From: Bradyrhizobium elkanii USDA 76
GTDB lineage: Bacteria; Pseudomonadota; Alphaproteobacteria; Rhizobiales; Xanthobacteraceae
Assembly (NCBI RefSeq): GCF_023278185.1
Contig: NZ_CP066356.1
Location: 1,790,001-1,854,000 of the forward strand
Direction of reading: 5' to 3'
DNA length: 64,000 bases
Shown here: piece by piece, positions 2,520 to 24,378 of the stretch
How positions within the stretch are numbered: position 1 is the first letter of the stretch
How the letters are laid out: every line of letters starts with the position of its first letter
Made by a program: the position numbers and the translations under genes
Notes under the pieces: generated by a model
Seen by the model: the letters and a program-made list of their open reading frames with translations, nothing else
Databases searched by the model: none
What the model was told of the DNA's origin: nothing

Positions 2520-2535
2520 TGAGCAATATTGCTCA
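2520..2535. promoter_or_regulatory. Unexplained 16-bp palindromic operator-like site, copy 1
   Basis: A perfect palindrome, TGAGCAATATTGCTCA (18 bp including flanking C and G). It is the most symmetric of five copies of the pattern TGRKCAAWWTTGCTCA and lies in the intergenic region between the divergent desaturase and zinc-ribbon genes. Confidence 0.5.
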
Positions 2536-2658
2536 GTCCGGGAGCCGGCACTTCAGAAAGGACGCGGGTTGATCGAGGCTACGGGGTGTACGCTTTCGGG
2601 ATGCGGCGAATGCGGGCCGGACTCCTTGACCGATCTTGCAATCACTTCTCGGAAAATG

Positions 2659-2674
2659 TGAGCAATATTGATCA
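2659..2674. promoter_or_regulatory. Unexplained 16-bp palindromic operator-like site, copy 2
   Basis: TGAGCAATATTGATCA, one mismatch from copy 1 and 139 bases downstream of it, in the same divergent intergenic region and about 90 bases before the zinc-ribbon gene. Confidence 0.5.
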
Positions 2675-2762
2675 GCAGCCGGTCAGGTGGTGCGCGATTT
2701 TGGTGCCGTCCGATTCGCTTCACGACCACAGGTGAACGGCCCCGACCCGGAAGGAGCATCAC

Positions 2763-2963
2763 ATGCCCGAAATCTTCGCGCGCCCCGAGCCCTCGCTTAT
2801 TCCGATCGCACGACCGCGCTGTCCGAAGTGCCAGGGCCGCATGACGCTGACCCGGATCGAATCCGACCACGGCAATCCTGACCTGCGGACTTTCGAATGC
2901 TCCAATTGCGAACTCGTCTGCCGGCTGCCGGCAGATGAACAAGTAAAATCGCTCAAGACCTAG
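2763..2963 (+). CDS. Small zinc-ribbon protein
   Basis: 66 residues from ATG 2763, preceded by GGAAGGAG. It has two CxxC knuckles, CPKC near residues 20-23 and CSNC near 46-49, suggesting one structural zinc. The rest is polar, with no other domain. A related protein with the same two knuckles and the same phrase (RTFECSxC) lies at 56308-56514, so the family is duplicated in this window. The partner or function is unknown. Confidence 0.75.
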   Translation: MPEIFARPEPSLIPIARPRCPKCQGRMTLTRIESDHGNPDLRTFECSNCELVCRLPADEQVKSLKT

Positions 2964-3014
2964 GGGCCCGAAGCCCGAAAAGGGAGTCCACTCACGCGAT
3001 ACGTCGCGCACGAG

Positions 3015-3893
3015 CTATGTGGCCGGGGTGCTCAGTGCGGCTATCGGCGCTTCGAACGTGTACGAAAACCCCGTCGACGCATAGGTTAGTTGCACGTCAC
3101 CCCGCAACTGCTTGCCCAGGGTTTCGATCAGCCGTGTTCCGAAGCTGCGCTTTGCGGGCGGCTGGACGATCGGGCCATTCTTTTCGGTCCAGGTGAGGTG
3201 CAAGCGTTGTGTCGCTTGGTCCACCGTCCAGATGATGTCGACGCGTCCCTCCGGGACCGACAGGGCGCCAAACTTGGTGGTATTCGTGCAAAGCTCGTTG
3301 AGCGTCATCGCGACGGCGATGACGGCACCGGACGCCAGCCGGATATCGGGTCCCGTGATCGAGAATTTCGATTCGTCGGGATTGTCGAAGGCTTCGATGG
3401 CGCTGCGAACGACCGTGCCAAGATCGGCGCTGGACCATTTTGCCTGCAGAAGGAGATCGTGCGCCCGGCCGAGTGCCAAGAGCCGGCCCTCGATGGCGCG
3501 CTGCGCGTGCTCAACCCCCTGCAGGTTGCGCAGGCTCTGGGAGACGATTGCGGCGACGGTCGCGAGCGTGTTCTTGATGCGGTGGTGCAGCTCTTCGAGG
3601 ATCAGCTTCTGCAGCTTGTCGGATCCCTCGCGCTCTTTGGCGTCGATGCCGGCCTTGGCAAGCAGACTCCTTGTATTGATCTCAGCTTGCGCCAGGAGTA
3701 GCCGCAGGCTGACATTCTCTGCCGCCAGGAAGTCCTGCCGGAATTCTGCGCCGCCCGGGCGCTTGTCTGTGCGGAGATCAACTTCGAGCATTTGCAACTG
3801 TATCACCCCGGGCTGGGTACCGCACTTGATTTCCGCCGAGCGTTCGCATTGAAGCGTCTGACGGCAGACAGCGCCAAAAACCACGAGATTCAA
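3015..3893 (-). CDS. HWE/HisKA_2-type sensor histidine kinase without obvious sensor domain
   Basis: 292 residues if read from the TTG at 3893, which overlaps the stop of the response-regulator gene (TTGA). A later ATG at 3791 (MLEVDL) is an alternative start. After a short coiled N-terminus comes the phospho-acceptor helix ELHHRIKNTLATV (histidine near residue 104) typical of HisKA_2/HWE kinases, then an ATPase domain with the N-box LNELCTNTTKFGAL. No membrane segment or PAS domain is seen, so it is probably cytosolic. The overlap with the receiver gene implies a dedicated pair. HWE kinases often feed the PhyR-EcfG pathway in this group, which is inference here. Confidence 0.85.
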   Translation of the reverse strand: MNLVVFGAVCRQTLQCERSAEIKCGTQPGVIQLQMLEVDLRTDKRPGGAEFRQDFLAAENVSLRLLLAQAEINTRSLLAKAGIDAKEREGSDKLQKLILEELHHRIKNTLATVAAIVSQSLRNLQGVEHAQRAIEGRLLALGRAHDLLLQAKWSSADLGTVVRSAIEAFDNPDESKFSITGPDIRLASGAVIAVAMTLNELCTNTTKFGALSVPEGRVDIIWTVDQATQRLHLTWTEKNGPIVQPPAKRSFGTRLIETLGKQLRGDVQLTYASTGFSYTFEAPIAALSTPAT

Positions 3894-4288
3894 GCGTGGC
3901 CAATCATGCTGCGTAGCTCAGCTATGATTTGCCAGGCTTGGAGTGATTTGCCAAAAAATCTGCTGCAGGGGGGAAGATCGATGCTCGATGGGTTCAAATG
4001 CCCCGACACCAGGATGATCTTGATCGCCGGCCAACGCTTGTGCACGGTACGCGCAAGACCCAGTCCGTCCATGCTGCCGGGCAGCTGAATGTCGGTGCAC
4101 ATGAGCGCGATGTCGGACCTGGATTCCAGGATTGCGACGGCTTCGTCGGTATCCAGAGCTTCAAGCGGCGTGTAACCGGCGTCTTCCACCATGTCGACCG
4201 CGCGCATGCGGAGCATCATCTCGTCCTCTACGACGAGAACGACGGCCGGACTGCGTGAAAGATCGGGCACCATCGGATGGGCATCCAC
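3890..4288 (-). CDS. Stand-alone response-regulator receiver protein
   Basis: 132 residues, a single CheY-like receiver domain with no output domain. The acidic pocket is E21-D22, the phospho-acceptor is Asp66 in MCTDIQLPG, the Ser/Thr position is in ILVSGH and the conserved Lys is in FFGKSL. It precedes and overlaps the HWE kinase gene by a few bases, so the two are translated together. Being output-less, it probably modulates the kinase or passes phosphate onward. Confidence 0.87.
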   Translation of the reverse strand: MDAHPMVPDLSRSPAVVLVVEDEMMLRMRAVDMVEDAGYTPLEALDTDEAVAILESRSDIALMCTDIQLPGSMDGLGLARTVHKRWPAIKIILVSGHLNPSSIDLPPCSRFFGKSLQAWQIIAELRSMIGHA

Positions 4289-4433
4289 GGAAAAACGGGT
4301 GTGACTGAAACAAGCGATTGATCTGAGACAAGCATCTCGGTGCCCCTACGATCCATGCCCAGGTGCTGTTTTCACTAATTATCCGAGATTGGGCCTGAAC
4401 GGTGGAGCGCGGGAAGAAGATAGCTCTCAACCG

Positions 4434-4586
4434 TCATTTTGCTGGCACGCCGACCCTGCCGCTGAAATGCTCGAGCATTTCAGCGGCGTTCTCCAGGATC
4501 TTAGCCATTTTCATCGCATCCGCGCGCTCGTCTCCCGGCGGCATCTTGCGGGCTCTATCCAGGGCGTCTGCCGCCCGGATGTTCAG
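4434..4586 (-). CDS. Small conserved-type hypothetical protein, start unresolved
   Basis: The C-terminal 50 residues (IRAADALDRARKMPPGDER and so on, ending GRVGVPAK) resemble a family of short, charged proteins that I associate with Bradyrhizobium, which typically carry RAADAL, a PPGxER phrase and end near RGRPAK. The open frame runs upstream to 4826 but overlaps the 35-residue gene at 4673-4780 on the same strand, so the true start should lie below 4673. No ATG or GTG is present there; CTG at 4586 is the best candidate. It may be a 5'-truncated gene. Confidence 0.4.
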   Translation of the reverse strand: MNIRAADALDRARKMPPGDERADAMKMAKILENAAEMLEHFSGRVGVPAK

Positions 4587-4672
4587 CTTGCAAGCTAACG
4601 ACGATTGGACTCGCTTGACTGGCCGGAATGAGCGGTTGGCTTGAGCTGACGGCGCAGGCCCACCGAGGGAAA

Positions 4673-4780
4673 CTACCACTGAATAAGCATCGCAGCAGCG
4701 ATCAGCAGCACAAAAAAGACCGGCAGCAGTACCGGAGGCACCAGCCACTCGCGAACGCTGAATTTGGAGATATCTGACAT
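4673..4780 (-). CDS. 35-residue single-pass membrane protein
   Basis: ATG at 4780 is preceded by AGAGGCGG at ideal spacing. The peptide begins MSDISKFSVREWLVPPV, continues with one hydrophobic helix (PVFFVLLIAAAMLI) and ends QW. A short polar N-terminus and a single transmembrane helix are typical of genuine bacterial small membrane proteins. Too short for most gene finders. Function unknown. Confidence 0.6.
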   Translation of the reverse strand: MSDISKFSVREWLVPPVLLPVFFVLLIAAAMLIQW

Positions 4781-5159
4781 AGTAACCGCCTCTAGGTCGC
4801 GGCGGGAGCACAATGCTCTCAGTCACCGATAACAGCCGAGGGGTGGGCGGTGATGTCTAGGATATAGTGCCGATCCGCAGAATAACGAGGCCAGGCGCAA
4901 CTATTTGCTGTGACAGGATCGAGCGGGGTTGTAATCCGCTTCCACCATAGCCATTTGGAGGCTGGCGCAACCGGATCGCTCCAAACTCCCTCCCTTCGCG
5001 CCAAGCTTTGGCTACAGCACATCTTGTCAGCGTATCGACCGGTTGCACGCGAGTGCGTCGGAGACAGGATCGGCTATCGCCATCGAATATGCCGCGACGC
5101 AAATCGCGTGCAGCCGGCACGGAGGTCTCGTGCTCCGACAACTGATCGGCCCCGGCAAC

Positions 5160-5420
5160 ATGATCGAGTTTCCGAACCATAGCCGGTCATATGACCGCAC
5201 GCGGCGTGCCGTACGATTTTGGGGACACGACAGCGCTATTGAGGCATCGTTTTTCATCAACGAAAATGCGCTGAAGCGAATTCAACCGGATATCGGTTGC
5301 GATGAGCCGGGCTTCCTCCGCGCATTCGATTCCAACCGTGACTTGATCTGCGCCGCCGCTGCCAAGGTGTACGTCCGCGGCAGCAGAGGCTCTTACGACC
5401 TGGTCCCCGCAAATTTTTGA
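5160..5420 (+). CDS. DUF1488 family protein
   Basis: 86 residues from ATG 5160 (MIEFPNHSRSYD). It matches the DUF1488 pattern as I know it: an N-terminal MIxFPN strand, a middle VRFWGHDS, and a C-terminal alanine-rich helix with a YxRG turn ending SYDLVPANF. Function unknown. The frame is open upstream to 5043, but homology to the decayed second copy (8558-8661, opposite strand) supports the start at MIEFPN, because the sequence upstream is conserved as non-coding DNA. Confidence 0.82.
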   Translation: MIEFPNHSRSYDRTRRAVRFWGHDSAIEASFFINENALKRIQPDIGCDEPGFLRAFDSNRDLICAAAAKVYVRGSRGSYDLVPANF

Positions 5421-5594
5421 ACCGATCGTGCTTCTGGCCTTCGCCTGATCGGCGAAACTGCCGATGTGCTTCGACCTGGCCATCTGAATACTCTCGACTG
5501 GCCACGAGGGGTAGCGGCAAAGTTTAACCGAGACTGCGCGTCAGACGCCGAGTGAAGCGTTCGATCTATGCCATTTGAAGATGGCCTCAATGAA

Positions 5595-5622
5595 AATGGC
5601 CGCGGAGTACTCCGCGGCCATT
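5595..5622 (-). terminator. Perfect 28-bp palindrome, probable terminator of the secreted-protein gene
   Basis: A perfect 28-bp inverted repeat centred on GGAGTACTCC, 21 bases after the stop at 5643 on the minus strand and followed there by TTTTC. The GC-rich stem plus a short T tract fits an intrinsic terminator; the symmetry would also allow function from the other side. Confidence 0.65.
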
Positions 5623-5642
5623 CATAGATATCCCGTCGTCTC

Positions 5643-5957
5643 TCAGTAGCGGTCGGTCCCGATTCCGACGCTCACGCCGGGAGCGCGGAAGCCGACGCCG
5701 GAACGGTCGTCATAGCCGCGCCGCTCGATGTAACGCTCGCGAGGAGCATATCCGTAAGCATCGCGCCCGTCGCGGATGATAACATGGCGTTCGCCGCGTT
5801 CGCGCCAGCAGCGACCATCTTCATTGCAGACCATGCGAACGTTTTGAATGTTGCTCTCCGGTGCAATCGATACACTGGCGGAAAGTGGGGCGGCTGAAGC
5901 GGCGGTCACAATAAGCGTACTTGCGGCGGCTACCAGAGTGATTGCGAAGGTTTTCAT
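5643..5957 (-). CDS. Secreted/periplasmic small protein
   Basis: 104 residues with a clear Sec signal peptide: MKTFAITL, a hydrophobic core, and an AxA-type cleavage site near residues 21-23 (ASAAP). The mature part has two cysteines (VCNEDGRC) that could form a disulfide and a tyrosine/arginine-rich C-terminal half. Such RY-rich exported proteins are frequent in this group. No enzymatic motif; function unknown. Confidence 0.8.
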   Translation of the reverse strand: MKTFAITLVAAASTLIVTAASAAPLSASVSIAPESNIQNVRMVCNEDGRCWRERGERHVIIRDGRDAYGYAPRERYIERRGYDDRSGVGFRAPGVSVGIGTDRY

Positions 5958-6112
5958 AATAGCATTTCTCCAAAGGTGATTGTGTCAGTGAGCCAATGGG
6001 CTCGCGACAGGATGGTTCCAGGAACTCGAATGTGAATATTTTTAGCGCAGGTGCAGGCGAGGAGCAGGGACTCCAAGTTGAAGGCGGCTTGATACCCACA
6101 CCCGTCGGCTTG

Positions 6113-6316
6113 CTAAGCAATTGATGCCAATGCCGCACGCCGCAGTTCGTTCTGATTGCGCTCACCGGTCGCAGCACGAGCGAGGATGTTCTGCGCAACC
6201 TGCAAACGGTTGGAGGTCGTGAGCACAGTGGGTGAGAATGACCCTATCGCATCCTCAAAAATTGCTTTGAAGCTGGCAAGCTCTTCTGGAGAATAGACTA
6301 CACGTTGATTCATCAT
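6113..6316 (-). CDS. Small hypothetical protein
   Basis: 67 residues, MMNQRVVYSPEELASFKAIF and so on, mostly helical and charged, with the phrase ILARAATGERNQNELRRAAL near the C-terminus. I associate this pattern with a widespread uncharacterised rhizobial family but cannot name it. It stands alone between two minus-strand genes, so operon membership is unclear. Confidence 0.65.
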   Translation of the reverse strand: MMNQRVVYSPEELASFKAIFEDAIGSFSPTVLTTSNRLQVAQNILARAATGERNQNELRRAALASIA

Positions 6317-6418
6317 CCTAATGACTTTCCCTATTTGCTACGTCTTGTCGGTGTGCCCTCTCACTGTCGCGCGCTAAAAAAAATCGGCCAGCGGCGTCGG
6401 TCCAATTGCCATCGGAAG

Positions 6419-6931
6419 TTACTCCCTACCAGCTTCGACCACGGAGTTGCGCGCGATGGTACCGGCAGCAATTTGAACTGAAGAACCGATTGCCCAACAG
6501 CCTGCGATCACAACGATCGAACCGTGAGACACGACCTGATCAACGACAATCATGCTGACAGATAGAAACGCTGCGATCGCGGCAATGAATGTGCCTGCTG
6601 CGCTGAAGATCTCAGCCGCATCGGTGTGGCTTCGCTCTTCCGGGAGCCCCTGAGCACGATGGCGAGGTAGGTCGATGCCGATATAGAAGCTAAAAGCTCC
6701 GTAGAGCATCAGCAGCAAGATGAACCAGACACTTCCAAACAGTTCGTGTTCGAGGCGCATCAACGCTGCGGCCACGTACATGCCGCACGAGCCTCCAATC
6801 GTGGCGAGTCCAATCCTTTCAAGGAAATGCGCCGATTTGATGAGGGGAGAAGGAGCGACCCATATGGTCGCCGCGCCATAAGTGTACTTTGCCGCAGACA
6901 GGGCACTAGGAACTACATTGCTCATTTTCAT
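6419..6931 (-). CDS. Four-helix integral membrane protein of unknown function
   Basis: Start ATG 6931 (MKMSNVVPSALSAAKYTYGA), chosen because AGAAGGAAG lies 8 bases upstream. 170 residues with about four hydrophobic segments (IGLATIGGSCGMYVAAAL; FGSVWFILLLMLYGAFSFYI; two C-terminal segments from FSAAGTFIAAIAAFLSVSMI onward). The loop between helices 2 and 3 is charged. No transporter signature is visible. The frame extends upstream to 7093 but without a better start. Confidence 0.72.
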   Translation of the reverse strand: MKMSNVVPSALSAAKYTYGAATIWVAPSPLIKSAHFLERIGLATIGGSCGMYVAAALMRLEHELFGSVWFILLLMLYGAFSFYIGIDLPRHRAQGLPEERSHTDAAEIFSAAGTFIAAIAAFLSVSMIVVDQVVSHGSIVVIAGCWAIGSSVQIAAGTIARNSVVEAGRE

Positions 6932-7519
6932 GTCGTGCTTCCTTCTGCGATTGCCTGACGCGCGCGACGTGGTCGGCACTCCCGTGTTTGGAACAGCAAT
7001 TTTGGAAAGTGTTTGCCTACCGACGGCAATGTGCTGCCATTTAGATGGAGGCGAGGACTTCGGTGCGTCGCCGTTTTGGCAGCTGTCGGGCAAGCAATCC
7101 GCTTGGCCGCTACAAAGACGCTACTCCGTTTCCGGTCCAACGCCTAATCAATAATGACTGGCAATGGAGGCGGTCTGAAAAATCTGCGGTGTTATGCCTC
7201 CGACGAAACTCTCTGAGTCGCCGCAATCCCACAAGGGATGGCATCGCAGCGCGAGGTCGTACGCGCTGCGCCCAGCGGCCGATGCGAAGTCAATTGTGGG
7301 CTCGCTGCATTCCCGCGATTAGTATTACCGCCTCTTGGCCTGCGGAATGGATTAAGGCAGCGCCACCTACCAATGAGGTGAGCTTTCAAATGCCAAGCAG
7401 ATTGTGCCGTTGGCGAAGCGCGCAGGTGTCACCGCTTCCCGCAGCTTGTCACGAGGTCTGTCCGAGGTGCTACTGCACGGGCTCTCCTAGGTGACTGAGG
7501 GTGTTACGCTCCCGCCGTG
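6932..7519. other. Intergenic stretch without a supportable gene
   Basis: Several short frames are open on both strands, but none has a ribosome-binding site plus a recognisable product. Nothing else was seen. Confidence 0.5.
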
Positions 7520-7851
7520 ATGGCTAAAACATACAGCCAGAACGACGCTGGCGCAGCCAGAGCACTGGATCTCGCATCGGCAGGCGTGCCTTCTGTCACA
7601 GGCAATTTGCCGCGACCGGAATCATCCTTGTGGTTGTGCAGAAATCAGGCAATCTGCCCGCGGAGCTCCGCTGTCTCCACCGACCTACGCAGAATGTACT
7701 CCTCGTCAGCCGCGAGGGCTGCGCCGCGGGGATGGTCCTGCTCCGGGATGAGAACGGAGCCGTTGCAAGCCTCCGCGAACCCTCGCTTGTCATCCGTCAA
7801 AAAGACGAATCCGTCCCTTCAGGTCTTGAATTTACGCGTTTCCTAAGCTGA
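7520..7851 (+). pseudogene. Frameshifted small hypothetical gene
   Basis: From ATG 7520 the frame reads MAKTYSQNDAGAARALDLAS. It then becomes unlike protein, while the next frame continues with an apparently natural sequence (RRAFCHRQFAATGIILVVVQ, later VLLVSREGCAAGMVLLRDENG) to a stop at 7851. The switch lies near 7575-7590 and needs one indel. The two halves together make a plausible protein of about 110 residues with a central beta-rich core. The family is unknown to me; broken by one frameshift if the sequence is correct. Confidence 0.5.
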
Positions 7852-8343
7852 GAACCCTTGACGAGTTCGCCGCGCGCGGTTGCCCTTGGGCGATGCTGCT
7901 CGGATGTGAACATGCAGAGCCCTCTCGTTGGTTGACCAGGACAGATATGGATATGGGGATCGAAGGTTCGAATAACGAGCCCAGGCGCAAATAAGATTGC
8001 CCTCGGAGCGCGCGGATAGGCTTTGCTGTGCGTCCAACCGTCCCGCCTGGCAAAAAGAGCCGCTGCGGCGGACTGCAATTAGGAACAATTCACCACCATC
8101 TTCGACCGCATCGTAGTTGCGAGCGATGGCGTCCTTCATCGCGAACCTCTCTGACAGTTTGTCCGCCGATAACTTCGGTCGACATTCAGATCTGATCAGG
8201 TAGCCTGCTTAATTCGCCGAGCTGCGCTTTTCCGGTTTAGCTCACTCGACGGACTCTGCCAGACCGGCTCGACCGGTCCGGTTCGCGCCAAGGGCGACGC
8301 CGCAGGCTTGCCCTGAAAGAGGCCACCATCTGCGGCGGCCTGA
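7852..8343. other. Intergenic stretch, one weak frame only
   Basis: A minus-strand frame at 7843-8139 begins MKDAIARNYDAVEDGGELFL, a plausible amphipathic start, but its second half turns arginine-rich and unconvincing, and no ribosome-binding site stands out. I see no other feature. Confidence 0.4.
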
Positions 8344-8502
8344 AAGGTTCGACATGATCCGAAGATCAATGAGCATACCTGTCCGGGATGCAATGGAAGG
8401 GGCTTCGCTGCGGTGATGCTGCCAGTGCAACCGGGCCAAAAAATCTACCCCACGAAATGCAAGCCCCGCGAGGGCAAGGGCAAAATCACCGATGCCAACT
8501 GA
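8344..8502 (+). pseudogene. Remnant of a small DnaJ-type zinc-finger protein
   Basis: An open frame contains TCPGCNGRGFAAVMLPVQ, then QKIYPTKCKPREGKGKITDAN and a stop. The first CxxCxGxG knuckle is intact. The second has lost a cysteine (CKPREGKG where CxxCxGxG is expected), and no start codon precedes the first knuckle. It looks like a degenerate member of the short CxxCxGxG protein family. Confidence 0.5.
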
Positions 8503-8557
8503 GGCGGCCTTCGCCATTCGCGGGAAATTTATGTCGGAGCGCGCAGGCCGGGCGAAG

Positions 8558-8661
8558 TCAGCGTATCTTCGTTTATGAAAACGGTGCCTCAATAGCGCTG
8601 TCGTGTCCCCCAAATCGCACGGCAGGCCGCGTGAACGACTATGGTTCGGAAACTCAATCAT
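8558..8661 (-). pseudogene. Decayed DUF1488 gene, 5' part only
   Basis: From ATG 8661 it begins MIEFPNHSRS exactly as the intact gene at 5160. A base-level indel then shifts the frame, although the DNA stays similar (the stretch GGGGACACGACAGCGCTATT is shared) until about 8558, where similarity stops. The product is therefore both frameshifted and truncated. Confidence 0.75.
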
Positions 8662-8785
8662 GGTTGAGGCCGAATAGTTGTCAGTGCACGAGACTCCGGG
8701 CCTGCCTGCGCGCGACTTGCATCGGGGCTTTGCCACAGTCTATCCCATGACGCACTCGCGCGCAGTCGGTCGATAAACTGACAAG
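8558..8785 (-). repeat. Inverted duplicate of the DUF1488 locus at 5023-5260
   Basis: The similarity covers not only the gene start but about 125 bases upstream (beginning CTTGTCAG at 5023 and its complement ending at 8785), with scattered substitutions. The copies are in opposite orientation 3.5 kb apart. Confidence 0.7.
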
Positions 8786-9110
8786 AGGCGCGGCTGCACC
8801 TTATGGTCGTGTTGCCCGCTGTGCAGCGCGTTGAAGTCGCTGATGCCGTCCACCCCAAGGATCACGGCCTCGCCATCGATCACAAACCTCTTTTGGCGGT
8901 TCCTCAGCGCGGCCTCAGCAATCCAGGGATAACGCTTCGTCCAGTCGCTGCCGTTGCGGGAGAGCAGCCGGACGCGCTCGTTTTCCCGGATGACCAGCAT
9001 CCGATGGCCGTCGTGCTTTACCTCATGGATCCAGTCCGGCCCTGGCGCGGTCCGCCGGGCTGAGATCGCGGCGGCGGTGCTGGCGCCGTCCTCACCGCCG
9101 TCGTTGTTGC
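8786..9110 (-). pseudogene. Fragment of an ATP-dependent DNA ligase (LigD-type ligase domain)
   Basis: An open frame encodes PDWIHEVKHDGHRMLVI, then SRNGSDWTKRYPWIAEAA, FVIDGEAVILGVDGISDFNAL. These are nucleotidyltransferase motif I with the AMP-accepting lysine (EVKHDG), the RNG motif and motif III-like DGEA of ATP-dependent DNA ligases used in bacterial end joining. Only about 85 residues of the adenylation domain remain. The upstream part is replaced by the IS21 remnant and the downstream part by the duplicated DUF1488 locus, so it cannot be functional. Confidence 0.78.
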
Positions 9111-10070
9111 GCCCTCTTGCCGAATACGAAGCCATGGTCGGAGGAAGCTTCTGATGGCGCGGCAAAGAAGATAATGGAAGCAACGACCGATCCGCTCGAT
9201 GCCATGCTGGCGCGACTGCAGCTCTCCGGCATCTGCGATCAGCTCGACAGCCTGCTCGACGAGGCGGCGCGCGCGAACCTGTCGGCGCGTGAGACACTGA
9301 TCCTGCTGTGCGAGCGCGAGATTGCGCGCAAGGATCATCGCCGTATCGAGATGGCACTAAAACTTGCACACTTCCCGGCCGTGAAGGAGCTTGCGGGCTT
9401 CGACTTCGAGGCGCAGCCGTCGATCGATCCGAAACAGATCCGCGACCTGCCCGCGTCACGTTGGATCGCCAACGGTGAGAACGTGCTGCTGCTCGGCCCA
9501 CCGGGCGTCGGTAAGACGCACCTGTCGATCGCGCTCGGGCGAGAGGCGATCCTGGCCGGTTACACGGTGCAGTTCACAACCGCGACGACGCTGGTCGCGG
9601 GCCTTGTCAAGGCACATGGCGAACGGCGTCTGGACGAGAAACTGCTCGCGCTGTCGAAGCCAAAGCTGCTGATCGTCGACGAGCTCGGCTATCTGCCGCT
9701 GGAACCCGACGCGGCACATCTCTTCTTCCAACTGGTCAGCCGGCGCTATGAAACTGGCGCCATGCTGATCACCTCGAACCGCAGTGTTGCCGAATGGGGC
9801 ACCGTGTTCGCCGGTCCCGTGGTCGCCACCGCGATCCTCGACCGGCTCTTGCATCACAGCCACGTGCTGACGATCCGCGGCGATAGTTACCGGCTCCGCG
9901 CCAAGCGAAAGAGCGGCCTCATCCAGCCGCCGCCCGCCGGTGACGGCCCTCCGGTCGGCTCCGCCTCCCTCCGGCCCGTCACCGGCGGAAACAACCTTCA
10001 ACCGAGATCATAACCCAGATGGTGGGGGCAGTTCTTCATGACGCAAAGGGGGCAGTTCCGGATGGCGTTT
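9110..10070 (+). mobile_element. IS21-family remnant (end of istA plus complete istB)
   Basis: It begins inside the ligase fragment with the last codons of an istA-like frame (LRPLAEYEAMVGGSF, stop at 9154) and contains a full istB. Past istB are two copies of GGGGGCAGTTC (10024 and 10048, 24 bases apart), as in the multiple terminal repeats of IS21 elements. The left end and nearly all of istA are missing. Confidence 0.75.
9174..10013 (+). CDS. istB: IstB-type transposition helper ATPase
   Basis: 279 residues from ATG 9174. AAA+ domain with Walker A GPPGVGKTH and Walker B LLIVDELGYLPL, followed by the sensor phrase LITSNRSVAEWGTVF, as in IS21-family IstB proteins that stimulate the IstA transposase. 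Normal length is about 250-280, so the gene appears complete; the tail after RAKRKSGL is proline-rich. Without istA the element should be immobile on its own. Confidence 0.88.
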   Translation: MEATTDPLDAMLARLQLSGICDQLDSLLDEAARANLSARETLILLCEREIARKDHRRIEMALKLAHFPAVKELAGFDFEAQPSIDPKQIRDLPASRWIANGENVLLLGPPGVGKTHLSIALGREAILAGYTVQFTTATTLVAGLVKAHGERRLDEKLLALSKPKLLIVDELGYLPLEPDAAHLFFQLVSRRYETGAMLITSNRSVAEWGTVFAGPVVATAILDRLLHHSHVLTIRGDSYRLRAKRKSGLIQPPPAGDGPPVGSASLRPVTGGNNLQPRS

Positions 10071-10135
10071 GATACCTAGGACGCGCGGCGCGAGTAGGGG
10101 ATAGCAACAAAGTATGGCTTTGGCTGTTCACATGC

Positions 10136-10372
10136 ATGGAAGCGCATCTTCTGCAGGTCACTACTGACGATGGCGAGTGCCGGTTTTGGTTAGCAGCCGG
10201 TACGGAAGAAGAGGCCGTTCAGCTCGTCTTGGATGCCATCCCGGAGGGATGGACCGCCAAACTAATCGATCGCGGGGGCACCGCCCCGGAGCAAGCTGCA
10301 GCGCTCGGCCTGACTGTTGGACTCGCGCCAGGAGAAGCCCGCGAGGTAAGCAGAGGAGTCGGGCTTAGCTGA
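10136..10372 (+). CDS. Small hypothetical protein
   Basis: 78 residues, MEAHLLQVTTDDGECRFWLA and so on, with an alternating strand pattern then EEEAVQLVLDAIPEGWTAKL and a C-terminal PGEAREV phrase. I associate it with an uncharacterised rhizobial family. It starts right after the IS21 remnant and reads away from it; the start lacks a strong Shine-Dalgarno. Confidence 0.6.
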   Translation: MEAHLLQVTTDDGECRFWLAAGTEEEAVQLVLDAIPEGWTAKLIDRGGTAPEQAAALGLTVGLAPGEAREVSRGVGLS

Positions 10373-10459
10373 TACGCAGGCGTTTCTCCGCCGCCTCGAT
10401 CTGCGAGCGGGGAAACCGGCCAGATGAATTTTGAAGCTTTAGCCCACAAGGAGCGTCAG

Positions 10460-11159: not shown

Positions 11160-11351
11160 TTATTTCTTGAGGGCGTCAGGGGCGTCCCGCGCTGCATCCT
11201 TCACATCTCCCGCCGCATTGTGGGCAGATCCCTTGGCCTTGTCGATCTTGCCTTCGGCTTCCATGTCCTTGTCGCCAGTGAGCTTACCGGCACCTTCTTT
11301 GATGGCGCCTTTTGCCTTGTCGGCAGCGCCCTTCACATGTTCGCGGTCCAT
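11160..11351 (-). CDS. CsbD-family stress protein
   Basis: 63 residues from ATG 11351 (MDREHVKGAADKAKGAIKEG). It is a classic CsbD protein: hydrophilic, rich in K, G, A and D, with the core GKLTGDKDMEAEGKIDKAKG. It is about 60 residues as usual for the family and has no membrane segment. A near-perfect EcfG promoter lies 32 bases upstream, consistent with induction in the general stress response. Confidence 0.92.
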   Translation of the reverse strand: MDREHVKGAADKAKGAIKEGAGKLTGDKDMEAEGKIDKAKGSAHNAAGDVKDAARDAPDALKK

Positions 11352-11559: not shown

Positions 11560-11575
11560 TGGTCAAAATTGCTCA
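11560..11575. promoter_or_regulatory. Unexplained 16-bp palindromic operator-like site, copy 3
   Basis: TGGTCAAAATTGCTCA, identical to copy 5 at 24153. It lies 110 bases before the small gene at 11685. Downstream it shares TTGCTCAG, six bases, TCTGCCA with copy 4 at 12062. Confidence 0.5.
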
Positions 11576-11684
11576 GACCTGGTCTGCCACAAGTGTTAAC
11601 AACACCCATCACCGTCCGGCGCATGGCTTCTATCTGTGCTGAGAACCCCAGTTGCGCTCCCGCCTAACCGAACAGGGAGCACCC

Positions 11685-11861
11685 ATGTTCAAGCAATCAT
11701 CGATATTTCAATACCGCTTAGAGGACGAGGCAATTGACTTGCGCAAGCAGGCTGAGGGTATGGCTCATGGCGGTCGACGCAACGAACTTTTACTGATCGC
11801 AAGCCGGATCGAGACCTCGGTTAAATGGCTGGATTCACCCGGTCTGCGCGCTCCGACATAG
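11685..11861 (+). CDS. Small charged hypothetical protein
   Basis: 58 residues from ATG 11685, preceded by AGGGAGC. It begins MFKQSSIFQYRLEDEAIDL, continues with a helical charged middle (RKQAEGMAHGGRRNELLLIA) and ends WLDSPGLRAPT. The pattern (FxQSSIFQxRLExEA, C-terminal WLxSPGLxxP) is one I associate with a small rhizobial family of unknown function. Confidence 0.68.
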   Translation: MFKQSSIFQYRLEDEAIDLRKQAEGMAHGGRRNELLLIASRIETSVKWLDSPGLRAPT

Positions 11862-12061
11862 ACTACTAGCGCAGAGAGGCGGCACCAGCCGGTAGCCTCT
11901 CGTTCACGCGCGTGGCCTTTGTTTCTCGTTTTCTGGAAGGTTCCTATGGGCCGGGCGGCTGGCCTATCTCCGTGGCCTAATTTGATTCTGGGAGTGGCCT
12001 GTTTTGAATTTGGCCAGATCTGAGGAACTGGAATGCAGTTGCCAAACCATTTGTGGTGCCT

Positions 12062-12077
12062 TGATCAATTTTGCTCA
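12062..12077. promoter_or_regulatory. Unexplained 16-bp palindromic operator-like site, copy 4
   Basis: TGATCAATTTTGCTCA, about 50 bases before the start of the small gene at 12126. It has the invariant right half TTGCTCA of the five-copy set. Confidence 0.5.
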
Positions 12078-12125
12078 GTTTTGATCTGCCATGCCTGCAA
12101 GGATGCCATGGCCGGAATAAGGGCA

Positions 12126-12302
12126 ATGATGATCAGCGTTGCACTGTGCCAGGAAGCTGCGGACCACTATTCTACACTGTCCCGTCAGGCTAGCCCTTCC
12201 GAGGATCGCGCCGCCGTCCTCAAGAACATCGCCCGAACTTTGCGGGGTTTAGCCGGTCAGCTCGATAGGCTGGCGTCTCTTGAGAGAACCTTGGGCAAGT
12301 AA
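12126..12302 (+). CDS. Small helical hypothetical protein
   Basis: 58 residues from ATG 12126 (MISVALCQEAADHYSTLSRQ), with further in-frame starts at 12123, 12108 and 12033. It is a helical protein rich in A, L and R (AAVLKNIARTLRGLAGQLDR) that could form a coiled coil. It ends where the ISL3 remnant begins, so its C-terminus may be partly fused to foreign DNA. No recognised domain. Confidence 0.45.
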   Translation: MMISVALCQEAADHYSTLSRQASPSEDRAAVLKNIARTLRGLAGQLDRLASLERTLGK

Positions 12303-17539: not shown

Positions 17540-17795
17540 GCGGGTTCCCTCCGCACTGTCAGGGTTGCGTCGACCCGAGCCGTCAAAAGATCTCGGCGAA
17601 CACGGCAACGCAATGATCGGCGGTGACATCCGCCGGAGCCCACATCGGTCCTCGCGCGAAAATCCACAATTCCTTCTACCGGAACTGACGGTCCCGTCAT
17701 CAGGCAATCTGGGCGGGCGTTACCTGTAAAACATATAGATCTTCCCGCAGTAAATATAGGATACTCTGCCGACGATCTGGATTGTTGGGCGCTGT

Positions 17796-18044
17796 CTAAA
17801 GCTGATCTTCGCCAGGATTTCGACGGCAGACGCCCCGGGTGTGCCTCTCGATCTCAGCCAGTGCGGCGTCGAGCGAGGCGTGCGGCCCTTGCTGTATGCC
17901 GGCCATAGTTTCCGATGCGTGGCCCTCCGGGTGGATCATGAACTGACGTGGAGCGCTTGCCGTGATGCGCCCCATCGAGCGGCCGAGCAGGTCCGTCAGC
18001 TGCCAAACCGTGCCTCCCTCTGCCGGTGTAACGATCACATCCAT
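17796..18044 (-). CDS. Small hypothetical protein
   Basis: 82 residues from ATG 18044 (MDVIVTPAEGGTVWQLTDLL). A central GRI strand is followed by FMIHPEGHASETMAGIQQGP, a helix (LDAALAEIERHT), and RGVCRRNPGEDQL at the end. This order is typical of a small rhizobial family of unknown role. An EcfG-like promoter lies 45 bases upstream with a one-base longer spacer. Confidence 0.7.
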   Translation of the reverse strand: MDVIVTPAEGGTVWQLTDLLGRSMGRITASAPRQFMIHPEGHASETMAGIQQGPHASLDAALAEIERHTRGVCRRNPGEDQL

Positions 18045-18088
18045 GGTGAACCTTGAGTCTGTACGCCGCGCGAACAAACCGTTGCAAT

Positions 18089-18114
18089 AACCGATGGGCG
18101 AACTACCGAGTTCC
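18089..18114 (-). promoter_or_regulatory. EcfG-type promoter candidate, long spacer
   Basis: On the minus strand: GGAAC, 17 bases, GGTT. The spacer is the longer of the two accepted lengths and the consensus c is G. It ends 45 bases before the ATG at 18044. Confidence 0.42.
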
Positions 18115-18253
18115 CCGGCCGCGGCATTCTCGGTACTGGAAGGATTGGCGCTTCGGATCGCCCCGCGATCGAGCGAATGGCGCTTAATGCCGATATATGC
18201 GACTATATCGAATGGTCAAAAAGAAAGGTCGAAGGCCAACGTCGGGAGAAGAA

Positions 18254-18529
18254 ATGGCAACCGCTCTCGACCGTTGGGACGAGGAAGGCGGAGCGCAGGA
18301 GTTGGCGTGGCCTTTACCCTATGAAGCCAGCGATTTGCGCGATGTGGAGCGCAGAGTCCTGGAATGTCTGGGTGCCGCCCTTGTCAGCGAATGGAATGAT
18401 CTGCCTACTGACGTCCAGCGCAGGCTCTTCGAGCACGCGGCCTCGGGCAAATCGCACGACGCCACCGTGTTGAAGACGCGGATCGCCCGTTTCCTGCATG
18501 ATCATAAAGGTGCTTCGGGTGGGCGCTAA
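18254..18529 (+). CDS. Small hypothetical protein
   Basis: 91 residues from ATG 18254 (MATALDRWDEEGGAQ), preceded by GGGAGAAGAA; an upstream GTG/ATG pair at 18197-18215 is also open. The sequence contains DVERRVLECLGAALVSEWND, LPTDVQRRLFEHAA and a C-terminal RIARFLHDHK. It is acidic and helical, a pattern I associate with a common uncharacterised family. No membrane segment. Confidence 0.72.
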   Translation: MATALDRWDEEGGAQELAWPLPYEASDLRDVERRVLECLGAALVSEWNDLPTDVQRRLFEHAASGKSHDATVLKTRIARFLHDHKGASGGR

Positions 18530-18599
18530 CACGACTTTGGCAGATTTGTTCACGCCTTGCTCTTCGCTGACCTGTGTTCTGCAGTACCCGTATCGCGGA

Positions 18600-18800
18600 T
18601 CTGATGGCTGAAGAATGAGAGCGACGATGGCGGGACGCGCGGCTGGCAGGTTGGGCTGAGGTGGTGGCCGTCGTTTCATTTTTGCGCCCCGTCTTGGCAA
18701 TGCGGAAGTACTGCAAGAAGGCGTAAGCAACCATCGTCATAAGAGCGTGACGATGAAGACCGTGCCAGAACCGTCCCATCGCGCCATGACGGTTGTAGCC
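18600..18800 (-). pseudogene. IS701-type transposase, C-terminal remnant with frameshift
   Basis: Two overlapping minus frames together give GRFWHGLHRHALMTMVAYAF, LQYFRIAKTGRK and, one frame over, PPPQPNLPAARPAIVAL. This is the typical end of IS701/IS4-like transposases (WRGLHRHAxMTxxAYxFL...). A frameshift near 18670 separates the halves and the rest of the gene is missing. Confidence 0.72.
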
Positions 18801-19082
18801 AACCGCTGCAAGTCTATCTCGGCTGGTAGATTTGCGAGATAGCATTTCTTCTCTCCGAGTCGCGATGCTTGCCGATCGCCAACTCGCATTTTTTCACTTG
18901 GCATCAGCAAGCATTTCGTCCGCCGGCATCTATAACAAATCCGCGATGTGTATTGCCTTGTGTTTGGTGACTTCGCAGCCATCTCATGGTAAAGAGTTAG
19001 CTAATCTCGGCACAAAGAGCACTGTAAACGGATTGCTTCACTATCGCGCCGATGCAAAGCCGTTTCTGAAGGATAGCCGATC

Positions 19083-19352
19083 ATGACCATGCGCTCCCGA
19101 CGCGAAACGGTCACCTTCAAGCATCCCTTCCGGATCAAGGGCATCGACCGCCTCCTGCCTCCGGGTGCCTACGAGGTCATCACCGATGAGGAGATGATCG
19201 AAGGATTGTCGTTCGAGGCGTTTCGCCGGGTTGCCACTATGATCACTGTGCCGGCGGCGCCGCCGCGCACTTCAACGGTGGAGAGGATTTCCATCGACCC
19301 GGTCGATTTGGCTGACGCTCAGCGCATTGATGCCGACGCGCCTCGTGAGTGA
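19083..19352 (+). CDS. Small hypothetical protein
   Basis: 89 residues, [20 protein letters not shown] and so on. A short beta-rich protein with the phrase [20 protein letters not shown], then [18 protein letters not shown] recognise the pattern from rhizobial genomes without a known function. It lies 345 bases upstream of groES on the same strand but has its own space for a promoter. Confidence 0.72.
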
Positions 19353-19383
19353 CGCGCCACTCGATCTCGACAAGCACCGCTGA

Positions 19384-19473
19384 ATGGCTGCACAAGAAGC
19401 GACCGACGTCCGGCGCATTCTGGCGCACGTCGAGAACAACGCAATGCCCCTGCGCGATGGGAAGCTTTCTTAA
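19384..19473 (+). CDS. Possible 29-residue peptide upstream of groES
   Basis: ATG 19384 opens [20 protein letters not shown] and closes at TAA 19473. It is short, with no strong ribosome-binding site, and could be a remnant or part of the groESL leader. Reported only because it is the sole open frame that fits the groES leader region. Confidence 0.2.
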
Positions 19474-19696
19474 ATCTGATGATGCGGCGTCCAACGACTT
19501 TCGCACCACACAGCTGGCCTTCACCGGATCCTTAGCCGCCGCGGTCTTGGCAGCTATTTCGTGTTGCTCTGAGCAGAATATCGTTTCGGGACGGTCTTGT
19601 ACGTCCCCTTGCGGCGGCTTATGTGCTGATGAGCACTCGCTGGCCACGACTGCCATTTCGTCCAAAGCAACAACAACAAGAAAACAGGAGGACAGC

Positions 19697-20014
19697 ATGA
19701 AATTCCGTCCGCTTCACGACCGCGTTGTGGTCAAGCGCATTGAGGCCGAAGACAAAACCGCTGGTGGCATCATCATTCCGGACACTGCCAAGGAAAAACC
19801 TTCGCAGGGCGAGATCACGGCGGTTGGCCCAGGCGGCCGCGATGAATCCGGCAGGCTGATTCCGATCGATCTCAAGGTTGGCGACCGCGTCCTGTTCGGC
19901 AAGTGGTCAGGCACCGAGGTCAAGCTCGATGGTCAGGAACTACTGATCATGAAGGAAAGCGACATTATGGGCGTTCTCACCGAGCTGCCCGCCGCCAAGA
20001 AGAAGGTCGCATAG
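19697..20014 (+). CDS. groES: GroES co-chaperonin
   Basis: 105 residues from ATG 19697, preceded by AGGAGGA. It has the full GroES fold: [18 protein letters not shown], the mobile loop region [20 protein letters not shown] and [20 protein letters not shown]. It caps GroEL during ATP-dependent protein folding in the cytosol. It is the first gene of a groES-groEL operon. I looked for a CIRCE operator (TTAGCACTC-N9-GAGTGCTAA) upstream and did not find one, so HrcA control is unlikely and sigma-32-type control more likely. Confidence 0.97.
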
Positions 20015-20040
20015 ACGCCAGCCAATTTTCCTTATCCTGA

Positions 20041-21798
<1,758 letters not shown>

Positions 21799-21828
21799 GT
21801 CCTACTCGTTCAGAGCTCAACAATAACG

Positions 21829-21858
21829 AAGGCCCGGCAGAGATGCTTGGGCCTTTTT
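21829..21858 (+). terminator. Intrinsic terminator of groESL
   Basis: AAGGCCC and GGGCCTT form a 7-bp stem with a 13-base loop followed by a T run, 31 bases after the groEL stop. Confidence 0.85.
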
Positions 21859-21859
21859 T

Positions 21860-21915
21860 GCAGGAACCAGCAAAAAGCGGCCGCCGAGAAGCGTGATGAA
21901 TTCTCGCCGTTTCAC
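21860..21915 (-). pseudogene. Remnant of an exported substrate-binding protein start
   Basis: From GTG 21915 the frame reads VKRREFITLLGG, the hallmark N-terminus of many rhizobial exported (Tat-type) substrate-binding proteins. It then diverges at once into RFLLVPAK without the hydrophobic core. Only about 12 codons are recognisable. Confidence 0.35.
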
Positions 21916-22079
21916 GGATTTCCGTGAGGACGCCTTGTGCAATATCTCAAAATCAGCACTTTGCATTGCAGCCGGGTGGCGGGTGAGAATTGTTACCAAA
22001 CCAGTCAGGACGCACCCCACCGTTACTGGATTTTGGGAAGTGCATAGCTCCGCCCTGGTTGGCCGCCCCCGTGATTAGA

Positions 22080-22311
22080 CCGAAGACCGCGATCATCTGG
22101 GACGCGGGGATCATGAGTAGCAGGCCGGCTACGATCGAGACACCCGGTGCAATAGCGACCACAGCGAGCAGCAGCATAATAGGGGCCGAAGGAGTGCTTG
22201 TGTAGGCGACCCATCAGCCAGCCCAGGGTAAAGCGATCTTGCCGGTGCCTCGTCGTGCAGCCGCTGCAGCAGGACCGAGGCAGGCACAAACACCCGTTCA
22301 TCGGCGGGCAT
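22080..22311 (-). pseudogene. exoD-like gene broken by two frameshifts
   Basis: Three reading frames in succession give LLQRLHDEAP, then RFTLGWLMGRLHKHSFGP, then MLLLAVVAIAPGVSIVAGLL and LMIPASQMIAVFG. Together these match the N-terminal half of the ExoD exopolysaccharide-synthesis membrane family. At least two indels disrupt it, and the C-terminal half is missing after about 22080. Confidence 0.75.
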
Positions 22312-22407
22312 TGTCGGCTTCAGCTGGTCGGGGCTCGTTGGGACCCGGTACGCCGGGGACAGGATATTTTGGGAGGCGCCCGGTCGACACAGCCGACCCT
22401 GCGAGGG

Positions 22408-22572
22408 TCAGAGCCGACCCAGAACTAGCAATACGACGAGGATGACCAGGATGGTACCGATGACCCCCATCCCACCGTGGCCATAGCCGTAGCCGTAGCC
22501 GCCGAAGCGGCCGCTGAAGCCACCAAGCAGGAAGATGATGAGGAGGATGATGAGGATAAGTCCGATCGACAT
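22408..22572 (-). CDS. DUF3309 small membrane protein
   Basis: 54 residues from ATG 22572 (MSIGLILIILLIIFLLGG). Two hydrophobic helices flank a glycine/tyrosine-rich loop (FGGYGYGYGHGGMG) and the protein ends VLLVLGRL, as in DUF3309. It is an inner-membrane peptide of unknown function, often found near stress genes in this group. The frame continues upstream to 22674, but the shorter start matches the family. Confidence 0.85.
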   Translation of the reverse strand: MSIGLILIILLIIFLLGGFSGRFGGYGYGYGHGGMGVIGTILVILVVLLVLGRL

Positions 22573-23067
22573 TGTCCGACCCTTTGGTGGGACCTTGTGG
22601 ATATTGGGTCTCTTGGTCGTCGGAGTTGAGTGCGCGATCTTCAAGCTTCCGGCGACGACTGTCGGCGGCATCACTGGGCAAGTGCTGTGCTACTTCTTCT
22701 CGATTGAAATGCCACCCGGCGCGGCGGACGCGGAGCAGGAGGCAGTTTGAGCTTGAGAGAGGCAGCCTTGGCATTGTTTGGCTCGTGGTCGGCGGTGCCC
22801 GTGGCGTTGCCGGGACGAGTGAGTCGCTTCGGGATTGCTGGTCGAGCCGATAGACCAGCCCCGCGCTCGCGCCTTTAGCTCCCTGGCGCAAGTTTTGTCT
22901 GTCTTCCGATTCGCCGACTCCTGCAAAAGTCCGCAGGAGGGGCCGATGCAGTTGACCGGATCACAAGGGCGCAGCCGCGCCATCGCGCTCCAGTGCGCTC
23001 GAGCGCGCGTTGAGTGGGCATGGTCTGTGACAGAGGTTGCCACGCCCAAACAGCGTCGCTCGTGCGC
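22573..23067. other. Intergenic stretch with no supportable gene
   Basis: Only arginine-rich shadow frames. One detail: on the minus strand near 22885-22910 the peptide NRKTDKTCARE echoes the C-terminus KADKTCAK of the secreted gene at 23589, so a fragment of a paralogue may lie here. Confidence 0.4.
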
Positions 23068-23415
23068 TCAATACGGGGCGTAGTATTGGCGGCGATAGGG
23101 ATACGGGCCGCCGTAGTAGCCTGGCGCATAGTAGTCCGGCCCGTAATAGCTACCACCGTAGGCTCCATAAGCGGCGGCTCCAGCCGCGGCACCCAGGATG
23201 CCAAGGCCAATTGCGGCCCCCGGAGCGCCGTAGTAGCCGCGACCGCGGTAGTGGCGTCGGTAGTAGATTTCTGTCACCCCGGACGAAGAAGCCGCTTGTG
23301 TCAGAAGAGTCGTGCTCGGCGAGATCGGAGCTGCCCCCGAAGGCAGCACCGAGGCGAGCGTCGCCGCACCGAAGAGTGCGACCGCAATCGCGTATTTCAT
23401 TGTCTGCTGGTTCAT
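23068..23415 (-). CDS. Secreted glycine/tyrosine-rich protein
   Basis: 115 residues from ATG 23415 (MNQQTMKYAIAVALFGAATL). A Sec signal peptide with cleavage near SGAAP is followed by a short polar stretch. Next come EIYYRRHYRGRGYYG, a hydrophobic glycine/alanine segment (AAIGLGILGAAAGAAAYGAY) and a YYxPxYY tail. Such exported GY-rich proteins are common in rhizobia, perhaps in the envelope. No enzymatic motif. Confidence 0.78.
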   Translation of the reverse strand: MNQQTMKYAIAVALFGAATLASVLPSGAAPISPSTTLLTQAASSSGVTEIYYRRHYRGRGYYGAPGAAIGLGILGAAAGAAAYGAYGGSYYGPDYYAPGYYGGPYPYRRQYYAPY

Positions 23416-23588
23416 GGTCGTATCCTCTCGAATTTGGAGCATCTCAAGCGGCAAGTCGATTGCGTGCCGCTGGCCGATAAAGAACCTCGACCCAGGGCGC
23501 TCGAGGCGCTGGTGGGGGCGGATCCGAGGATTCGTGGTTCTAGCGAACTCGCAGAGCCGCCTTTGTACTCGCGCCGCGACTTAACCGA

Positions 23589-23840
23589 TTACTTGGCGCA
23601 AGTTTTGTCCGCCTTCAAAGCCGCTTCTGCCGAGGCCTTTGTCGTGTGAGCGGCGCCGACAACCTTCATGCTGCCGCCGGCAGCAGGCTGGCTCTCGACG
23701 ATCTGACACTTCATGGTCGCAGTATCCTGAGCCAGGTAGAACGAGGAGGGCGATTGGCCAACGGTTTTGCCAGTCTCCGCCGCGAATGACGGAGAAGCGA
23801 ATGCGAGAACAGAGACTGTCGCTAATAGAATTCTTTTCAT
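23589..23840 (-). CDS. Small periplasmic protein
   Basis: 83 residues from ATG 23840 (MKRILLATVSVLAFASPSFA), a textbook signal peptide with cleavage after SFA. The mature protein has two cysteines (TMKCQIV and ADKTCAK at the C-terminus) that could form a disulfide, and the phrase VGAAHTTKASAEAALKADK. An EcfG-like promoter ends 44 bases upstream, suggesting stress induction. Confidence 0.8.
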   Translation of the reverse strand: MKRILLATVSVLAFASPSFAAETGKTVGQSPSSFYLAQDTATMKCQIVESQPAAGGSMKVVGAAHTTKASAEAALKADKTCAK

Positions 23841-23883
23841 AGTATCCACCAATTCTTATGCGTCCGGAATCGGACAAAGAATG

Positions 23884-23908
23884 AACAGGGCAAGCCGACA
23901 AGAGTTCC
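23884..23908 (-). promoter_or_regulatory. EcfG-type promoter candidate for the periplasmic protein
   Basis: On the minus strand: GGAAC, 17 bases, GTT, with T at the consensus c. It ends 44 bases before the ATG at 23840. Confidence 0.58.
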
Positions 23909-24378
23909 AGCTATCGCCGATTTGTTTGTTTCGTGTGGATTGACGTGGGTCAGCGACAGCCCTGAAAGTCTGTCGACAGGTTATGCCAATCGCCCAATTC
24001 CATTCTGCCTAGCGGCGATCCTTCAGCGGGTGTTGCCGTTAGCGGGAATCATTTGGCTATAGCTGCGCTCCTCGCAAACATTCTCTCAATCATCGATGGA
24101 TGCCTAGAGCAGGGCGGTGAGAAGTATTGTGCCGCAACGCGGCGCGAGCTTATGGTCAAAATTGCTCATTCAAGAAAATTTAACGAAAGGGATTTTGCCA
24201 TCAGATTAGGACGGCGATCACTGATCGCAATGTCACTCTTTGGCCCAAGCCCACTGACGAGTAGGCGCAACAGGCGATGCCCATCATGAGCGGGCGCCTG
24301 AAGTCCCTTCTAGAAAACGTGAGGGCCTTGAAGCTGAACGACTGATCAGAAGGGTTGCCGAAGGTCCAATGCGTCGAT
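23909..24378. other. Intergenic stretch, holds one operator-like site
   Basis: No gene that I can support. It contains copy 5 of the 16-bp palindrome (24153-24168). A plus-strand frame from 24053 is open through the site but has no recognisable product. Confidence 0.5.
24153..24168. promoter_or_regulatory. Unexplained 16-bp palindromic operator-like site, copy 5
   Basis: TGGTCAAAATTGCTCA, identical to copy 3 at 11560 over all 16 bases. No annotated gene starts near it, unlike the other copies. Confidence 0.45.

Follow-up and report, generated by a model that had tools for sequence, protein, structure and literature searches.

A clustered 16-bp palindrome in Bradyrhizobium elkanii USDA 76, a probable operator of a Crp/Fnr-type regulator clade present in several phyla

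Which protein, if any, reads a short palindrome that recurs five times in one part of a bacterial genome? The question is raised by a 64-kb stretch of Bradyrhizobium elkanii USDA 76 (C1:1790001-1854000, where C1 is contig NZ_CP066356.1), called the window here, with feature positions counted from its first base. Very probably, the 16-bp palindrome is the operator of a clade of Crp/Fnr-type regulators, represented in this genome by a protein termed F0, which would act as a class II activator from a site centred at about -41.5. Assignment of the operator to a Crp/Fnr-type clade is well supported by genome comparison, and class II activation by F0 is likely. The five copies are likely landing sites of F0, because the palindrome lies beside the F0 gene in several phyla and is frequent in relatives only together with F0. 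The initial annotation had wavered between a dispersed repeat unit and the operator of a regulator it could not name; F0, whose presence tracks the sites and whose homologs in several phyla have the palindrome at their loci, is a candidate for the latter.

The palindrome in the window and the genome

As initially described, the pattern TGRKCAAWWTTGMYCA matches exactly five times in the window, at 2520, 2659, 11560, 12062 and 24153, and the copies at 11560 and 24153 are identical across all 16 bases. No match was found in 100 dinucleotide shuffles of the window (mean 0.00, largest 0), in agreement with the early estimate that chance copies are unlikely. Permitting up to three mismatches adds two places, both weak (18537 and 50758), while a weight matrix applied at threshold 7 returns the same five sites and no others, leaving the last 40 kb without a copy as had been claimed. 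Across the whole genome (9,518,205 bases) the strict pattern TGRKCAANNTTGMYCA has six matches, all within 28 kb (C1:1786342-1814168): the five inside the window and one 3.7 kb before its start. The reversed control has none in the whole genome. With one mismatch allowed there are 25 forward matches vs 6 for the reversed control; these comprise the six strict copies, a relaxed copy at C1:1777488, TGTGCAATTTTGCTCA, next to the F0 gene, and 18 further matches, of which 17 are far away and one lies 26 kb before the cluster.

The constant core across relatives is TG-N2-CAA-N2-TTG-N2-CA with a mostly A/T centre; the R and K first assigned to the two positions after TG do not hold, both being freer than that. 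A dispersed mobile or structural repeat with no regulatory role, of the repetitive extragenic palindromic (REP) or partition-site kind, might be expected from copies that are palindromic, clustered and numerous in some relatives (up to 15). The flanks speak against it: across 55 distinct sites the shared information peaks at 0.63 bit, at the position immediately bordering the palindrome on either side, and is 0.47 for the third right-hand base and no more than 0.3 elsewhere. The palindrome is therefore not part of a longer transposable or REP-type repeat, and the repeat-unit option lacks support. Given also the intergenic placement, the nearby gene starts, the fixed -10 spacing and the scarcity of copies without F0, all described below, a repeat origin is highly improbable.

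The candidate regulator F0 and its association with the sites

The F0 gene (C1:1777919-1778593) lies just outside the window, 7.7 kb from the nearest strict site. Its product carries PF00027 (cNMP_binding, 64.8 bits) followed by PF13545 (HTH_Crp_2, 46.9 bits), both over their cut-offs, and this domain order places it in the Crp/Fnr superfamily. The best sequence relatives in the PDB are named as probable CRP/FNR-family regulators. Thirteen NCBI families were hit, none at its cut-off; the NCBI CRP model scored 59 with a cut-off of 266.

Co-occurrence was followed in 146 genomes of the genus, own included, with F0 counted as present at E <= 1e-30. At least one strict site is found in 78 of the 146, with 258 sites in total vs 10 for the reversed pattern; the count per genome ranges between 0 and 15, which marks the motif as part of an accessory system. 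F0 is present in 51 genomes. Three or more sites occur in 31 of these and in none of the 95 genomes without F0 (Fisher 1.6e-18; Spearman 0.71), and one or two strict sites occur in 33 of the 95. Within 1.5 kb of F0, a strict site is seen at 15 of 30 same-genus loci and a matrix score of at least 20 at 27 of 30, although the strict sites of these loci were in the training set of the matrix. The matrix hits near F0 widened the consensus to TGNNCAAWWTTGNNCA, which has a mean of 6.4 matches per genome with F0 and 1.1 without. As a genome-wide count of a regulon this relaxed pattern was rejected, as it picks up other palindromes in genomes lacking F0. In G014, G036, G049 and G051 another perfect palindrome, TGTTCAATATTGAACA, recurs, also in three genomes without F0, and is perhaps the box of another regulator. 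The association also appears particular to F0 within its own family: this genome has 34 HTH_Crp_2 matches, of which 30 loci were fetched, and the 29 non-F0 loci (22 over the family cut-off) gave no matrix hit of at least 12 in 92 kb.

Because sites and F0 occur on shared islands, their co-occurrence by itself does not tell an owner from a passenger. Another DNA-binding protein that travels with F0 could own the site, F0 being carried along by a mobile island, and close F0 genes are indeed absent from five of 13 stretches taken around sites in eight genomes, own included. Even so, F0 is the most widely shared gene family of these stretches, with close genes (74-100% identical) in eight of the 13; loose clustering gave nine, the ninth being a 22% relative. 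It is also, as far as their shared families were searched against Pfam, the sole recognised DNA-binding protein among them besides a transposase. A co-island control gene (L046:5328-5699) does not carry the site association: at least three sites occur in 0 of 11 genomes with the control and without F0, and in 15 of 31 with F0 and without the control. Some sites in F0-containing genomes lie far from F0, and the link holds in distant phyla where the neighbours differ. A passenger role for F0 is thus quite improbable.

Those phyla were reached by scanning named genomes with 12 F0 homologs, which gave 79 loci from Alpha- and Betaproteobacteria, Acidobacteriota, Nitrospira, Rokubacteria, a Planctomycetota metagenome-assembled genome and others; many are metagenome-assembled genomes, and single assignments are uncertain. 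The consensus TGNNCAAWWTTGNNCA has 43 hits in 33 of the 79 loci, and nine altered control palindromes have 0-1 hits each; matrix scores of at least 20 occur in 39 of 79 loci vs 0.33 in shuffles. Of the hits scoring at least 14, 77 of 81 are intergenic, though intergenic DNA makes up 26%, and 65 of 81 have a called start within 400 bp (two such starts fall inside or before the site). Once the 14 loci with Bradyrhizobium in their titles and two more resembling the discovery set had been removed, 63 out-of-set loci remained (L117 and L120 are near-copies). When 57,344 spaced palindromes were ranked on these, TGnnCAA(NN)TTGnnCA came first with 26 loci, followed by variants of TGnnCAA (up to 12), the best unrelated pattern reaching 5. 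In another family of the class (L096) F0 and a desaturase gene are divergent, and a site in the gap between them lies 60 bp ahead of the start of F0; in another family of the phylum (L105) a desaturase gene adjoins F0, and a site is located 146 bp before that desaturase gene.

Ten genomes, reached via ten named loci chosen for having a site near F0, contain 1-7 matches each with one control hit in all. The exact TGGTCAAAATTGCTCA has ten matches in six of them (two Terriglobia, three Nitrospira-type and one Rokubacteria record). Nine F0 genomes outside the genus gave fewer matches; in one of them, G511, there are five with four for the control, and these look like chance. In favour of chance palindromes in A/T-rich gaps are the one or two strict hits in the 33 genomes without F0. 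For the cluster itself, chance is excluded by the shuffles, the reversed control in this genome, the control palindromes and the pattern ranking, and as a general explanation it has a negligible probability.

F0 is rare in the class, being found in 6 of 289 sampled genomes, own included, and it is present on plasmids. Eight plasmid records have F0 (E <= 1e-40), four of them conjugative, with CsbD, trehalose-6-phosphate synthase, DUF1003, AI-2E transporter or Ku genes within 8-10 kb of it, and exact sites lie in three of the eight F0 regions (six hits, controls 0). On the conjugative plasmid pACIX903 of Granulicella tundricola (L223), three Crp/Fnr genes are arranged in alternation with kinase, response-regulator and cold-shock genes; no exact site was found there despite the three genes.

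DNA code, signal and promoter geometry

The recognition helix gives a second view of the box. In Escherichia coli CRP, R180 contacts the outer G, while E181 and R185 contact the inner G:C. In 118 F0 homologs the R180 position is R in all, as is that of T182; the E181 position is S, A or P in 117 and E in one, and R185 is replaced in 117 tallied of 118, mostly by F, Y or H. Retention of R180 with replacement of E181 and R185 agrees with a box in which TG is kept and the two bases after it are free. The E. coli CRP box, TGTGA-N6-TCACA, has the same 16-bp palindromic span with TG at both ends, and CRP belongs to the same domain family by Pfam and PDB sequence matches and can act from the same class II position. 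The F0 site differs in its core, TG-N2-CAA-N2-TTG-N2-CA, whose inner positions are free, and is not a CRP box.

The cAMP-contact residues of E. coli CRP are E72, R82, S83, T127 and S128. E72 is kept in 118 of 118 homologs, which were chosen by a pattern that favours the GE of E72, and R82 in 111 of 118; S83 is mostly I, M or L, T127 mostly I or V (T in three), and S128 is E or Q in all. As S83, T127 and S128 are replaced, the signal of F0 is probably not cAMP. The oxygen sensor FNR uses four iron-sulfur cysteines, three of them near the N-terminus; in the alignment of the 118 homologs such a set is absent, with cysteine exceeding 30% in two columns only, at position 78 (109 of 118) and at one further on (74 of 118). 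Several loci of the genus, and loci from two other families, encode close to F0 a small protein of membrane type in which a stretch resembling GGW-x-TGS was recognised by eye (C1:1778772-1779155, which is L045:18772-19155; L095:521-883; L097:2502-2861). The members from L045 and L097 gave no Pfam match; the protein may be a partner of the regulator.

Other known systems differ as well. The general stress regulon of alphaproteobacteria, EcfG/PhyR, has the site GGAAC...CGTT; the island here resembles it in CsbD, a trehalose-synthase-type gene, HWE kinases and response regulators, and departs from it in the site and in having a one-component Crp/Fnr protein instead of a sigma factor. FNR and FixK share the superfamily with F0 and act as class II activators near -41.5, but have another box and another helix, with the E181 and R185 counts above setting F0 apart. 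The box of the FNR, FixK, DNR and NnrR groups is TTGAT-N4-ATCAA (Dufour et al. 2010, PMC2908626). The initial annotation was thus right to exclude FixK and CRP sites, yet the box is likely that of a distant cousin. The paper by Dufour et al. describes four uncharacterised alphaproteobacterial groups (A, B, C and G), for which it gives predicted logos, in 28-59 of 87 genomes; F0 is much rarer and, judged by this rarity, is probably none of them. Literature listings for TGAGCAA, CAATATTG, the helix string and related topics, from which subscription papers are largely missing, contained no description of this box (PMC8510549, PMC5449483, in part), and the match for TGAGCAA with Bradyrhizobium in PMC2908626 is a list of FnrL sites.

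The position of the site relative to promoters was assessed with the -10 box assumed at -12 to -7 and start positions predicted from sequence. Among 262 sides of 131 sites, TAnnnT has its first T exactly 29.5 bp from the site centre in 24; other offsets have a mean of 1.3, and the second best is 9 at 30.5. Outside the discovery set the 29.5-bp spacing is present at 15 of 32 sites, with five more sides at 30.5 and at most two at any other offset. When a site has this TAnnnT, its distal half mostly carries AG at the two free positions (17 of 24). If the first T is at -12, the site centre lies at -41.5, which is the classic position of a class II activator, known for CRP and FNR. The predicted -10 spacing hence agrees with a Crp/Fnr operator, which has its centre at about -41.5 or further upstream.

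F0 itself would contact the DNA, binding the palindrome as a dimer centred at about -41.5, and would activate transcription as a class II activator rather than repress it. That F0 binds the site mainly as a repressor or dual regulator is rather unlikely. In favour of such a role, 107 of 131 sites have no TAnnnT at the class II offset, as do 17 of 32 outside the discovery set, and in 39 of 97 site-gene pairs the start codon is 177-260 bp away from the site. Repressor sites, however, are usually spread over the promoter, and class II activation predicts the kind of sharp peak, confined to one base, that is seen at 29.5 bp.

Several further counts weigh against a class II operator owned by F0. 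In the window, one of ten site sides has TAnnnT at 29.5 bp (the desaturase side of 2520); the nearest among the other nine is TAACAA at 11560. Seventeen further sites fetched by pattern alone, likely chance hits among them, gave none at 29.5 in 34 sides and two at 30.5. Relaxed matches also occur without F0, reaching five in one genome, and three of the 51 genomes with F0 have not even a relaxed site. Three of nine F0 genomes outside the genus have no site, G211 has three F0 matches and no site, 37 of the 63 out-of-set loci have no such intergenic palindrome, and five of the eight plasmid F0 regions have no exact site.

With moderate confidence, F0 operators may be placed in a wider setting: an undescribed Crp/Fnr clade with its own DNA code, TG-N2-CAA-N2-TTG-N2-CA, and a signal other than cAMP, which would move between soil phyla, also on conjugative plasmids, with a self-wired class II membrane and stress regulon and an operator, TGGTCAAAATTGCTCA, identical to the letter from Bradyrhizobium to Acidobacteriota and Nitrospira. 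This would supply a likely DNA code and mode of action for a cross-phylum Crp/Fnr group that records name by family only, and regulons of F0-type regulators could be read from genomes of uncultured soil bacteria. The palindrome may also be a ready reporter for finding the signal of F0.

Genes behind the sites and features of the window

Among 97 site-gene pairs within 20-260 bp, F0-type genes form the largest group (16 pairs in 14 loci), followed by desaturase-type genes (11 pairs in 10 loci, one of which, L088, is a doubtful gene call). The remainder include six Transgly_assoc-type small membrane proteins, four response regulators and three CsbD-like proteins, the others being small unknown proteins. 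Together they would make up a regulon for stress and membrane adjustment, a portable stress-gene set that F0 is predicted to switch on: F0 itself, a fatty-acid desaturase, CsbD, small membrane proteins of the Transgly_assoc type, single-domain response regulators and small proteins without a known family. Many small proteins whose function is unknown would thereby be tied to desaturase, CsbD and response regulators as one likely response. In three Terriglobia loci (L126:3855-5426, L136:6041-7612, L168:6043-7614; the L126 member was typed by Pfam search), a B12-binding radical-SAM gene follows F0 and has a site before it, with TAnnnT at the class II offset in L126 and L136.

The sites of the window and the genes around them are as follows.

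1254..2378, minus strand: fatty-acid desaturase, predicted target; Pfam FA_desaturase, DesA model match below its cut-off
2493..2498, minus strand: TAGCAT, the predicted -10 box of the desaturase gene; its first T and the site 1 centre are exactly 29.5 bp apart, which puts that centre at a predicted -41.5
2520..2535: site 1, TGAGCAATATTGCTCA, a perfect palindrome in the gap from which the desaturase and zinc-ribbon genes diverge; scores 31.2 out of 33 with the matrix
2659..2674: site 2, TGAGCAATATTGATCA, 139 bp from site 1 and within that intergenic region; neither side has TAnnnT at 29.5 bp
2763..2963, plus strand: small zinc-ribbon-like protein, possible target; start 88 bp after site 2, Pfam match below cut-off
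11160..11351, minus strand: CsbD-like stress protein, possible target; start 208 bp from site 3
11560..11575: site 3, TGGTCAAAATTGCTCA, between the CsbD gene and a small gene
11597..11602, plus strand: weak predicted -10 box TAACAA on the side of the 11685 small gene, 29.5 bp from the site 3 centre; does not fit TAnnnT
11685..11861, plus strand: 58-amino-acid protein of no known family, possible target; start 109 bp after site 3
12062..12077: site 4, TGATCAATTTTGCTCA; the small gene at 12108 has its called start 30 bp further on
12108..12302, plus strand: small gene after site 4, 64 amino acids, no family
24153..24168: site 5, TGGTCAAAATTGCTCA, the same as site 3; no gene start called within 400 bp downstream on either strand

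A pair spaced like sites 1 and 2 is present in the relative G002. The desaturase intergenic region has a sole match in the fetched loci, which is 99.8% identical, and its conservation is therefore uninformative. At site 3, 14-16 of 16 bases are kept in matches from five other stretches (L049, L050, L053, L054 and L061), and the G002 and G020 relatives of the 11685 gene are preceded by a site at a distance of 109-114 bp. In diverged matches, with flanks 70-79% identical, 14-15 of 16 site bases are kept at 11560, 16 of 16 at L046:6342 and 14 of 16 at 24153. No orthologue of site 4 was found in the loci fetched for comparison, and this site would fall within a longer open reading frame, 12033-12302, if that start applied. 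A reading by eye of sites 3 and 4 as zinc-ribbon coding fragments was dropped, because the 11560 site is outside called genes and the sites of relatives are mostly intergenic.

Inside the site cluster lies a groES-groEL pair (Cpn10, Cpn60; 19697-21798), with no site directly before it. After the last site, phage-integrase-type and resolvase/recombinase-type genes are found at 27013-30665, which suggests an island boundary there.

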